Source: Streptacidiphilus rugosus AM-16 (GTDB lineage Bacteria > Actinomycetota > Actinomycetes > Streptomycetales > Streptomycetaceae). From it: a DNA stretch of 64,000 bases. The stretch's first letter is position 1; every line of letters begins with the position of its first letter. The notes below the pieces were generated by a model. That model made no database searches. It was not told where the DNA came from and saw nothing but the letters and a program-made list of their open reading frames with translations. Of the stretch, positions 11,529 through 50,657 are shown piece by piece. The position numbers and the translations under genes were made by a program. The DNA is taken from assembly GCF_000744655.1 (NCBI RefSeq), contig NZ_JQMJ01000004.1, positions 1,178,001-1,242,000 on the forward strand, in the 5' to 3' direction.

Positions 11529-12272
11529 ATGACCCAGAACAAGCCGTCGCAGGCCGATCGCCGACGCATAGCCCAGGAGAAGATCGCCGCCCAGCGCGCG
11601 GCCGAGGCGCGGCGTCAGCGCAGGATGACCATCGCGATGACGGTCGGCGGCGTGGTCCTGATCGGCGGACTCGTCACCGCCGGCGTCTTCGTCATCGGCA
11701 AGGCGAACGGCGACAAGGTCAAGGCCGACGCCAGCGCGGCCGCGAGCGACCCGTCCATCGACAAGAGCGCCAGCCTGCTCGCCTCCACGGCCCACCAGGC
11801 GGACGGCGGCGACGTGGACGGCATCGTCAAGAGCAACTCGATGGAGCAGACGGTCTACCACATCCACTCGCACCTCCAGGTGTTCGTGGACGGCAAGCCG
11901 GCCACCATCCCCTACGGCATCGGCATCGTCCCGCCGTACGAGCTGCAGACCCAGCAGGACGGCACGCCGTTCGTCCAGGGCGGCAAGGAGTTCTACTTCC
12001 TGCACACCCACGACGAGAGCGGCGTCATCCACGTCGAGTCGCCGACCCAGAACACCTACACCCTCGGCAACCTCTTCGACCTGTGGAACCAGCCGCTGAA
12101 CAGCGGCCAGGTCGCCGGCCACAAGGGCTCGGTCACGGTCTTCGTCGACGGCAAGCCGTACACCGGCGACGTGCGGAGCATCGTCTTCAAGAACCTGGAG
12201 AAGATCCAGATCGACGTGGGCACGGCCACGCCGTACAAGGACTGGACCTGGCCGTCGGGCTACACGAGCTGA
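11529..12272 (+). CDS. single-pass membrane protein with His-rich extracellular domain, function unknown
   Basis: This 247-residue protein has a charged cytoplasmic head (residues 1-32), one transmembrane segment (about 33-57) and an extracellular domain. The exterior carries two His clusters, YHIHSHLQVFVDG and FLHTHDESGVIHVES, each followed by hydrophobic strands and, between them, the block YGIGIVPP; the later TLGNLFDLWNQPL looks conserved in type. I recognise the pattern from uncharacterised proteins of soil bacteria and archaea but know no assigned role. The His spacing suggests metal binding (inference). GAGG stands 7 nt before ATG 11529. It is 11 nt ahead of the PCu(A)C-like gene, so the two form an operon. 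Confidence 0.65.
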   Translation: MTQNKPSQADRRRIAQEKIAAQRAAEARRQRRMTIAMTVGGVVLIGGLVTAGVFVIGKANGDKVKADASAAASDPSIDKSASLLASTAHQADGGDVDGIVKSNSMEQTVYHIHSHLQVFVDGKPATIPYGIGIVPPYELQTQQDGTPFVQGGKEFYFLHTHDESGVIHVESPTQNTYTLGNLFDLWNQPLNSGQVAGHKGSVTVFVDGKPYTGDVRSIVFKNLEKIQIDVGTATPYKDWTWPSGYTS

Positions 12273-49770: not shown

Positions 49771-49776
49771 TAGGCT
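49771..49776 (+). promoter_or_regulatory. candidate -10 element of the permuted tRNA-like RNA
   Basis: TAGGCT ends 6 nt before the closing stem at 49783, so transcription would start at the stem. The -35 region (GTGGCG at 49748-49753) is weak. Confidence 0.45.
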
Positions 49777-49782
49777 GGATGT

Positions 49783-49902
49783 CGAGCGGGTAGATGGAGC
49801 GTGCAAGTCCTCCCAGCTCCACTTCATGGGGCTGTAGCTCAAAGCAGAGCGACCCGCTCGCCTGAGCACCCGTACTGAGCGCGGTTGAGTAGAACCGCTC
49901 TC
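49783..49902 (+). ncRNA. candidate circularly permuted tRNA-Ala-like RNA
   Basis: The 310-bp gap between the divergent genes holds a foldable RNA. A 9-bp stem (CGAGCGGGT, 49783-49791, with 49852-49860) encloses, in order, a 4-nt variable region AGAT, a T-arm (GGAG/CTCC with loop TGCAAGT and one bulged C), CAGCTCC, discriminator A 49821, a 6-nt spacer, GGGGCTG, TA and a D-arm GCTC-AAAGCA-GAGC. CAGCTCC pairs with GGGGCTG in seven bp including G3:U70. Thus the 3' half precedes the 5' half and the transcript ends lie at the anticodon arm. The D-loop is short and lacks GG, and T55 is G. A 49877-49902 hairpin may end the RNA. Confidence 0.45.
49877..49902 (+). terminator. hairpin after the permuted tRNA-like RNA
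   Basis: GCGGTT and AACCGC pair around GAGTAG, with GAG/CTC continuing the stem after one mismatch (nine bp in all). It lies 12 bp before GTG 49914 and could end the RNA or act as a leader hairpin. Confidence 0.35.
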
Positions 49903-49913
49903 CCCGAGCCCTC

Positions 49914-50657
49914 GTGCCGTCCGTGATCATCGACGGCATGGGGGCTTTCTTCGGTCTGTTGGCGGTCGCTGCGGTGGTGCTCGGGGTGCTGCTGCATCTC
50001 TTCGCGCACACCCCGCTCTCGGAACTGCTGGGTCTGGGCGCGGGGGCGCTCTGCCTGCTGTGGCTGGTCGTGCTGCTCACCGTGCCCTGGAACCTGTACT
50101 TCCAGGCGAAGACGGTGCGGCAGGAGATCCTCGACGGGCGCGCCGCGGGCGTGGACGTCCCGGCCGGACGGGAGCAGGACGCCGAGGCGATCGCCCGGCG
50201 TCTGCTGCGGCTGGCGATCGGCGCGCACCTGGTCTCCGCCGCCGTGATCGCGGTGATCACCGCGGTGTCCGGCCGCGAACTCGGCTACTGGTTCTCCGCG
50301 TTCTACCTGCTGAGCACCGTCTTCCGGCCCGCCGACGCCTATCTGCGGCATCTCCGCGCGCGGCTCGGCCTGATGCGCACCGAGGCGGCCTTCCCCCGCG
50401 ACGACGTGGTCACCCTCAAGGCGCGCCTCGACGCCGCCGAGACCGCGACGGCCAAGCTCTCCGAGGAGTCCCGCCGCCTGACCCAGGAGCTCGACCGTCT
50501 TGCGGTCGTGGTCCGCGAACGCGACGACCAGCTCGAACAGCGGATCCACGCCATGGGCCGCCGCTTCGAGGACGCGCTCGGCAGTCTCACCGACAACCAG
50601 GAGGTCATCAGCGGAATCCGCGCCTTCCTGCGCCTGATGCGGGAGGAGCGGGCCTGA
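49914..50657 (+). CDS. membrane protein with C-terminal coiled coil, function unknown
   Basis: This protein of about 247 residues has two hydrophobic helices near the start (residues 9-30 and 36-58), two more at about 105-145 (LVSAAVIAVITAVSG; YWFSAFYLLSTVF), then a soluble heptad-rich stretch (155-230; LKARLDAAETATAKLSEESRRL) likely to form a coiled coil. No catalytic motif is visible. ATG 49938 is an alternative start that would give 239 residues. It lies directly downstream of the candidate structured RNA and could be affected by it. Function unknown. Confidence 0.65.
   Translation: MPSVIIDGMGAFFGLLAVAAVVLGVLLHLFAHTPLSELLGLGAGALCLLWLVVLLTVPWNLYFQAKTVRQEILDGRAAGVDVPAGREQDAEAIARRLLRLAIGAHLVSAAVIAVITAVSGRELGYWFSAFYLLSTVFRPADAYLRHLRARLGLMRTEAAFPRDDVVTLKARLDAAETATAKLSEESRRLTQELDRLAVVVRERDDQLEQRIHAMGRRFEDALGSLTDNQEVISGIRAFLRLMREERA

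Follow-up and report, generated by a model that had tools for sequence, protein, structure and literature searches.

A compact, permuted tRNA-like RNA with an alanine-type acceptor in Streptacidiphilus and Streptomyces

Introduction

A short stretch of the Streptacidiphilus rugosus AM-16 genome, in which the parts of a tRNA stand in an unusual order, raises the question of whether it encodes an RNA and, if so, of what kind. The original prediction read it as a circularly permuted, alanine-type tRNA-like RNA. We have compared this locus with related genomes and with known permuted RNAs; the window mentioned below is the whole stretch of 64,000 nt that was analysed, and all positions refer to it. 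The compact RNA, as we call it here, is a real, rare and conserved RNA element, and the nearest known structure is the tRNA mimic of YrlA, a bacterial Y RNA.

The element in the window

The features of the locus are as follows.

49771..49776, + strand: TAGGCT, a -10-like hexamer separated from the closing stem by 6 nt; the window copy has no recognisable -35
49783..49791, + strand: closing stem, 5' strand CGAGCGGGT, from the fold; probable transcript start, judging from the position of the -10-like hexamer
49796..49813, + strand: T-arm (GGAG, bulged C, G53, loop TGCAAGT, C61, CTCC), from the fold; 2 of 5 pairs change on both sides
49814..49820, + strand: acceptor 3' strand CAGCTCC (66-72, U70 included), pairing with 49828-49834
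49821..49827, + strand: acceptor loop, consisting of discriminator A73, C74 and then a variable spacer; A73 and C74 invariant in 12/12
49828..49834, + strand: acceptor 5' strand GGGGCTG (1-7); pair 6:67 changes on both sides, from U-A to C-G
49835..49851, + strand: TA (8-9), D-arm GCTC/GAGC with loop AAAGCA, and G26; D-stem invariant in 12/12
49852..49860, + strand: closing stem, 3' strand ACCCGCTCG, from the fold and covariation
49877..49902, + strand: hairpin 3' of the RNA, from the fold; probably the upstream region of the next gene and not part of the RNA
49938..50657, + strand: next gene, for a protein without Pfam match; ATG at 49938 suggested as the start, common to the orthologs by eye

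From 5' to 3' the parts run T-arm, acceptor hairpin and D-arm, all within the closing stem, and the layout read originally (this order, CAGCTCC, A73, a 6-nt spacer, GGGGCTG, TA, the D-arm, G26 and the G3:U70 pair) is present throughout in the window sequence and fold. The 78-nt module (49783-49860) has a predicted folding energy of -37.5 kcal/mol (z = -3.7), equalled in 2 of 200 shuffles, and three homologs folded alongside it gave z-scores of -2.6 to -3.5. Several details of the prediction have become more precise. A closing stem of 9 bp does exist in the window (49783-49791 with 49852-49860), but its outermost ninth pair is not conserved and the family stem has 8 pairs; the T-arm is present, but its stem is to be drawn as 4 bp, a bulged C and G53:C61. 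The G at T55 is confined to the three Streptacidiphilus copies, the other nine sequences having U55, and of the description of a short D-loop without GG the first half stands (6 nt in 9/12), but GG is found inside the D-loop in 8/12 by eye. The hairpin said to follow the module folds at 49877-49902, but it aligns by eye with a TGAGTA-containing element lying before the orthologous next gene at sites without the RNA, and therefore it probably lies outside the RNA.

ARAGORN assigns no tRNA and no tmRNA in the window, and Rfam gives no family above the gathering threshold there. When 281 bases were scanned with Rfam under relaxed settings, the top-ranking family was YrlA, matched along its full length though with a score of 14.8 bits (E = 2), and this first place is a lead, not a test. 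A motif built from the aligned copies has a single match in the window, which is this RNA, and none in 100 shuffles.

Homologs, covariation and transcription signals

A DNA search of the genus has found the element in 3 of 14 genomes, namely the window's, S. jiangxiensis (G009, 93%) and S. pinicola (G002, 92%), and another search in 3 of 21; the stretch matched in S. jiangxiensis nearly coincides with the extent of the RNA (window 49772-49859). The first covariance model, built from those three sequences and run over 394 Streptomycetaceae genomes, gave a match at E of 0.001 or lower in 62 genomes, ten of them at 55-109 bits; among the other matches listed, the scores were at most 47 bits and those read belonged to another kind of module. 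Thirty loci from this search were read, 10 being kept as members and 20 assigned to type B, described below. A scan of GTDB 220 contigs (84,980 species) with a motif that fixes part of the acceptor returned 8 records, all from Streptomyces or Streptacidiphilus, two of which lay outside the ten, in S. eurocidicus and ISL-11. The alignment consists of 12 sequences, all different, from the ten covariance-model carriers and these two additions; besides the three Streptacidiphilus, carriers include Streptomyces netropsis (G157), S. albireticuli (G257), S. fildesensis (G076) and Streptomyces sp. PH10-H1 (G147), and the independent lineages known to carry the RNA are few (four genera in the taxonomy used). 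Phage or plasmid origin was rejected on finding no match to the motif in viral contigs and none to the 91-base stretch in plasmids and phages.

Among 288 paired cells of the 12 sequences, 98.6% are standard pairs and 4 are unpaired, and changes on both sides are seen in 7 of 24 pairs: four of the 8 modelled pairs of the closing stem, two in the T-stem and one in the acceptor. The covariation score of 0.216, as against at most 0.044 with the partners slid, was reached by none of 500 shuffles and is similar on ten sequences; the closing-stem pair beside the linker fails in 3/12 and its neighbour in 1/12. The alignment of relatives for compensatory changes, proposed in the original prediction, has found the arms conserved and the changes mostly compensated, in agreement with a conserved, permuted, alanine-type tRNA-like RNA. 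C56 is kept in 12/12 and a G can be placed by eye at D-loop position 19 in 12/12, so that the G19:C56 elbow contact is possible throughout. Conservation of the RNA exceeds that of its upstream flank in two groups (92.2% vs 57.3% and 97.4% vs 79.7%).

In 10 of the 12 genes a TANNNT hexamer is separated from the stem by exactly 6 nt (background, 2 of 3881 positions), and a TTGC box lies 16 nt further upstream in 9/12 by eye, or 8/12 in the script table, where one sequence (L133) is printed in another frame. Because the register is the same, transcription probably starts at the stem, as was anticipated from the -10-like hexamer of the window. The window copy has TAGGCT in this register, S. jiangxiensis and S. 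pinicola lack TANNNT, and a recognisable -35 is missing in all three Streptacidiphilus copies, the window's included; standard promoter and terminator scans gave nothing in the three regions tried. Strong folds, with dG values from -32 to -44 over 70 nt, are predicted 3' of the RNA in G178 and in the S. fildesensis group, and these would fit a stand-alone transcript.

Comparison with Y RNAs and other permuted RNAs

The tRNA-like module of YrlA, as described in passages of PMC8394870, imitates the D, T and acceptor arms, and the basal stem holds Ro60. YrlA (Rfam RF02553) resembles the compact RNA in having the T-arm, acceptor hairpin and D-arm in that order inside a closing stem; unlike YrlA, the compact RNA lacks the basal motifs of the Ro60-side stem and carries an alanine-type acceptor with A73. 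The gathering score of RF02553 (69) is not discriminating here, because the canonical Y RNAs beside Ro60 miss it too, those scanned having 24-49 bits and the compact RNA 14.8 bits. As the canonical set we have taken 26 YrlA matches (E up to 1) near Ro60 genes: three in the own genome, all within about 3 kb of its Ro60 (TROVE) gene, 3.3 Mb from the window, and one of them weak (E = 0.9), and 23 more in twenty loci around TROVE matches of relatives. With basal motifs that were written after viewing these canonical sequences, GTGCG(C/A)AG is found in 23 of the 26, a TACTTC-like box in 26, a GATCTC-like motif in 20 and all three in 18; the respective counts in the 12 compact RNAs are 0, 0, 1 and 0, the single case being G178 with the 3' motif alone. 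We have not filed the compact RNA as a Y RNA because it fails this motif test; judging from sequence, it resembles a Y RNA that has kept its tRNA-like half and lacks the Ro60 half, and it may well work like the former.

We have rejected RF02553 as a homolog finder, since it matches at E up to 10 in 12 of 14 control genomes as well as in 40 of 41 relatives' genomes and since, in the 27 of 30 loci scanned with ARAGORN, 12 matches straddle tandem tRNA-Ala or tRNA-Asn genes (e.g., L026 and L013). The junction of tandem tRNA genes mimics the module, so such matches were not used as evidence; having the same arm order, it is a pitfall for YrlA annotation and a hint of how such modules could arise.

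In each of three genomes checked (own, G263 and G026), permuted tRNA-like modules of another kind, type B, follow a DUF7873 gene (PF25283) on its downstream side. The own genome has two in tandem (L035:11756-11839 and 11907-11980; C4 near 4564755), about 2.5 kb from Ro60, and others lie at L078 and L079; modules with the same flanks also exist elsewhere in the family and in further families of the class. The type B control set comprises 29 modules with shared flanks, the DUF7873 neighbour having been checked in those three genomes, and a further control set, the others, comprises 14 modules from a wider search, in which 27 of 28 new loci were read (L101 is at a contig end). Burroughs and Aravind reportedly described in 2016 a 'novel tRNA-like molecule' in RNA-repair contexts, a tRNA-like RNA as the compact RNA is; the type B RNAs beside DUF7873 are possibly this molecule. 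In the own genome, the Y RNA matches close to Ro60 also have an RNA ligase gene (RLIG1, PF17720; L035:5794-6654) between them, which suggests an RNA-repair island. At L102:1501-1579 (G589, of a different family) there is another compact module, whose closing stem is short. By eye it is accompanied by a strong terminator-like hairpin, and its acceptor, unparsed by the script, is by eye not alanine-type. A T-box-like leader (43.9 bits, below gathering) has been found at L037:4737-4977 (- strand), at the start of a reading frame that we take to encode an aspartyl/asparaginyl-tRNA synthetase.

Two further kinds of permuted RNA have to be compared. According to passages of PMC3985003, tmRNA without exception has G-U at pair 3, and the genes of two-piece tmRNA are permuted. 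The compact RNA shares with these the permuted acceptor half and G3:U70, and the two-piece tmRNA criterion of G3:U70 with A73 applies to 12/12; however, its conserved 78 nt hold no tag reading frame or pseudoknots, and it has an ordinary 4-bp D-stem where two-piece tmRNA has none. In circularly permuted tRNA genes of algae and archaea, as passages of PMC3978253 describe them, a short intervening sequence joins the acceptor strands, as it does here; unlike them, the compact RNA is bacterial, has no anticodon arm, and ends in a plain 8-9 bp stem. A permuted tRNA gene was ruled out because this stem is open-ended and there is no anticodon loop; the strands are ordered as in the tRNA-mimic module of YrlA, an RNA that the original prediction does not name. 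Among the matches listed for Y RNAs, permuted tRNAs, tRNA-like RNAs and RNA repair, no title or abstract beginning describes the compact RNA.

Alanine-type acceptor

The acceptor has proved to be alanine-type as predicted: G3:U70 and A73 are kept together in 12/12 compact RNAs and in none of the 63 other permuted modules that could be parsed (0/22 canonical, 0/28 type B and 0/13 others; 4 of 26, 1 of 29 and 1 of 14, respectively, were unparsed). G3:U70 alone is present in 1/22, 3/28 and 3/13 of these sets, and A73 alone in 2/22, 0/28 and 8/13. Alanine-type acceptors made up the training data of the covariance models R1 and R2. With R3, a model blind to the acceptor, matches at E up to 1e-4 were obtained in 8 of 394 genomes, each of them a member already known; R3 missed two known members (PH10-H1 and G094), and very different arms would escape it. 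The acceptor is invariant at every position from G1 to C5, and its conservation is thus not peculiar to pair 3. A recent copy of the host tRNA-Ala was considered as well. In seven of the ten carrier genomes, positions 6-7 of the acceptor 5' strand are unlike those of the tRNA-Ala genes detected by a search pattern that may miss isoacceptors, and there is thus no fresh copy in those seven; the three Streptacidiphilus have the same 5' strand as tRNA-Ala(GGC), though position 66 differs in the window's genome.

Genomic context

The RNA faces the end of an acyl-CoA ligase gene in S. pinicola (convergent), and in PH10-H1 it lies between a lysyl-PG synthase/LysRS gene (convergent end) and a polysaccharide deacetylase gene; G094 also has the deacetylase, and S. 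fildesensis has reading frames of like size and order. An esterase-like gene (Pfam) follows the RNA in S. netropsis and G394, and the downstream start is the same in S. eurocidicus, S. albireticuli and ISL-11. In the five S. netropsis-like genomes, the stretch that follows the RNA and reaches into the next gene is 89.9% conserved vs 92.2% for the RNA, and with this near equality the RNA may have a leader role there. Orthologs of the window's next gene exist in S. pinicola and G008 with both flanks kept by eye and the RNA absent, S. pinicola having its copy elsewhere in the genome; G006 and G011 have the next gene as well, with no RNA and with a different gene upstream. These differing sites and RNA-less orthologous loci indicate that the RNA gene is not tied to one place.

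Alternative explanations

That the RNA is a cis-acting leader, a tRNA-like regulatory element of the downstream gene, would suit the + strand gene that comes next in the window and the common downstream start in the S. netropsis group, but we regard it as very improbable; the downstream contexts differ by group, including convergent gene ends in S. jiangxiensis (Ro60), S. pinicola and PH10-H1, and the window's next gene has RNA-less orthologs. We have consequently rejected cis-regulation as the common role of the family, and the regulatory reading of the original prediction is disfavoured in this cis form by the differing neighbours and the two orthologous sites without RNA. It is equally improbable that in the window's species the RNA has no function and is a relic, as was also offered originally, or a fold that arose by chance: the weak promoters of the three Streptacidiphilus copies, their D-loops without GG and their G55 would agree with this, but a pair of the closing stem shows a compensatory change from G-C to A-U when the window is compared with S. 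jiangxiensis, and despite the different loci the arms are nearly identical otherwise.

It is quite unlikely that the compact RNA is a Y RNA after all, which binds Ro60 (TROVE) via its closing stem and works in the Ro60 complex. In S. jiangxiensis 75 nt lie between its end and the 3' end of Ro60 (opposite strand), with a canonical YrlA preceding that gene on its other side, and TROVE is found in 9/10 carrier genomes vs 222/394 of the family sample (one-sided Fisher p = 0.027, kinship ignored); on the other hand, the set of basal-stem motifs is absent in 12/12, S. pinicola carries the RNA without any TROVE match, and a TROVE match adjoins the RNA in 1/10 carriers, the other nine having none beside it. 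Unlikely, too, though slightly less so, is a two-piece chargeable RNA, a separation into two pieces by RNase P and RNase Z having been raised in the original prediction. In this reading RNase P and tRNase Z (or an exonuclease) would cut the acceptor loop, the CCA enzyme would complete the 3' end and AlaRS would charge it, as in a permuted two-piece tmRNA without the mRNA part. The invariance of G3:U70, A73 and C74 while pair 6:67 covaries, the lack of a fresh tRNA-Ala copy in seven genomes, the acceptor loop that varies in length and sequence, and the tmRNA precedent in passages of PMC3985003 argue for it. However, this loop has 6-9 nt in the family, inside the range of 21 canonical Y RNAs (2-9 nt), CCA follows A73 in just 3/12, the invariant top of the acceptor may reflect tRNA-Ala descent (the 5' strand is equal in the three Streptacidiphilus, though position 66 differs in the window's genome), and there is neither anticodon nor tag. 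We are similarly doubtful, and rather think it unlikely, that a permuted RNA cut in the acceptor loop to two base-paired pieces, CCA-completed and alanine-charged, would yield an alanyl-RNA without anticodon or tag that serves as an alanine donor or a ribosome/EF-Tu partner outside known tRNA and tmRNA.

Proposed role and significance

The explanation that we prefer, tentatively and at somewhat less than even chances, is a tRNA mimic that stands alone, acts in trans and has an alanine-type acceptor; its strands follow the order of the tRNA-mimic module of YrlA, but the Ro60-binding basal stem is missing. Comparison across genomes establishes, at the level of predicted structure and sequence, a conserved secondary structure, the absence of the basal motifs, the identity of the acceptor and the independence of the gene from any one neighbour. 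The locus would be a small non-coding RNA gene whose transcript, judging from the -10 position, begins at the closing stem; the RNA would fold as a tRNA-like L and act in trans, and the intact mimic may occupy an enzyme that recognises the acceptor and T-arm half of tRNA. YrlA serves PNPase and Ro60, and by analogy the compact RNA might have a role as decoy, tether or specificity factor.

The compact RNA separates the tRNA-mimic half of a Y RNA from the Ro60 tether and so permits a direct test of the mimic alone. If its alanine signature is used, the compact RNA would be chargeable while belonging to neither the tRNAs nor the tmRNAs.
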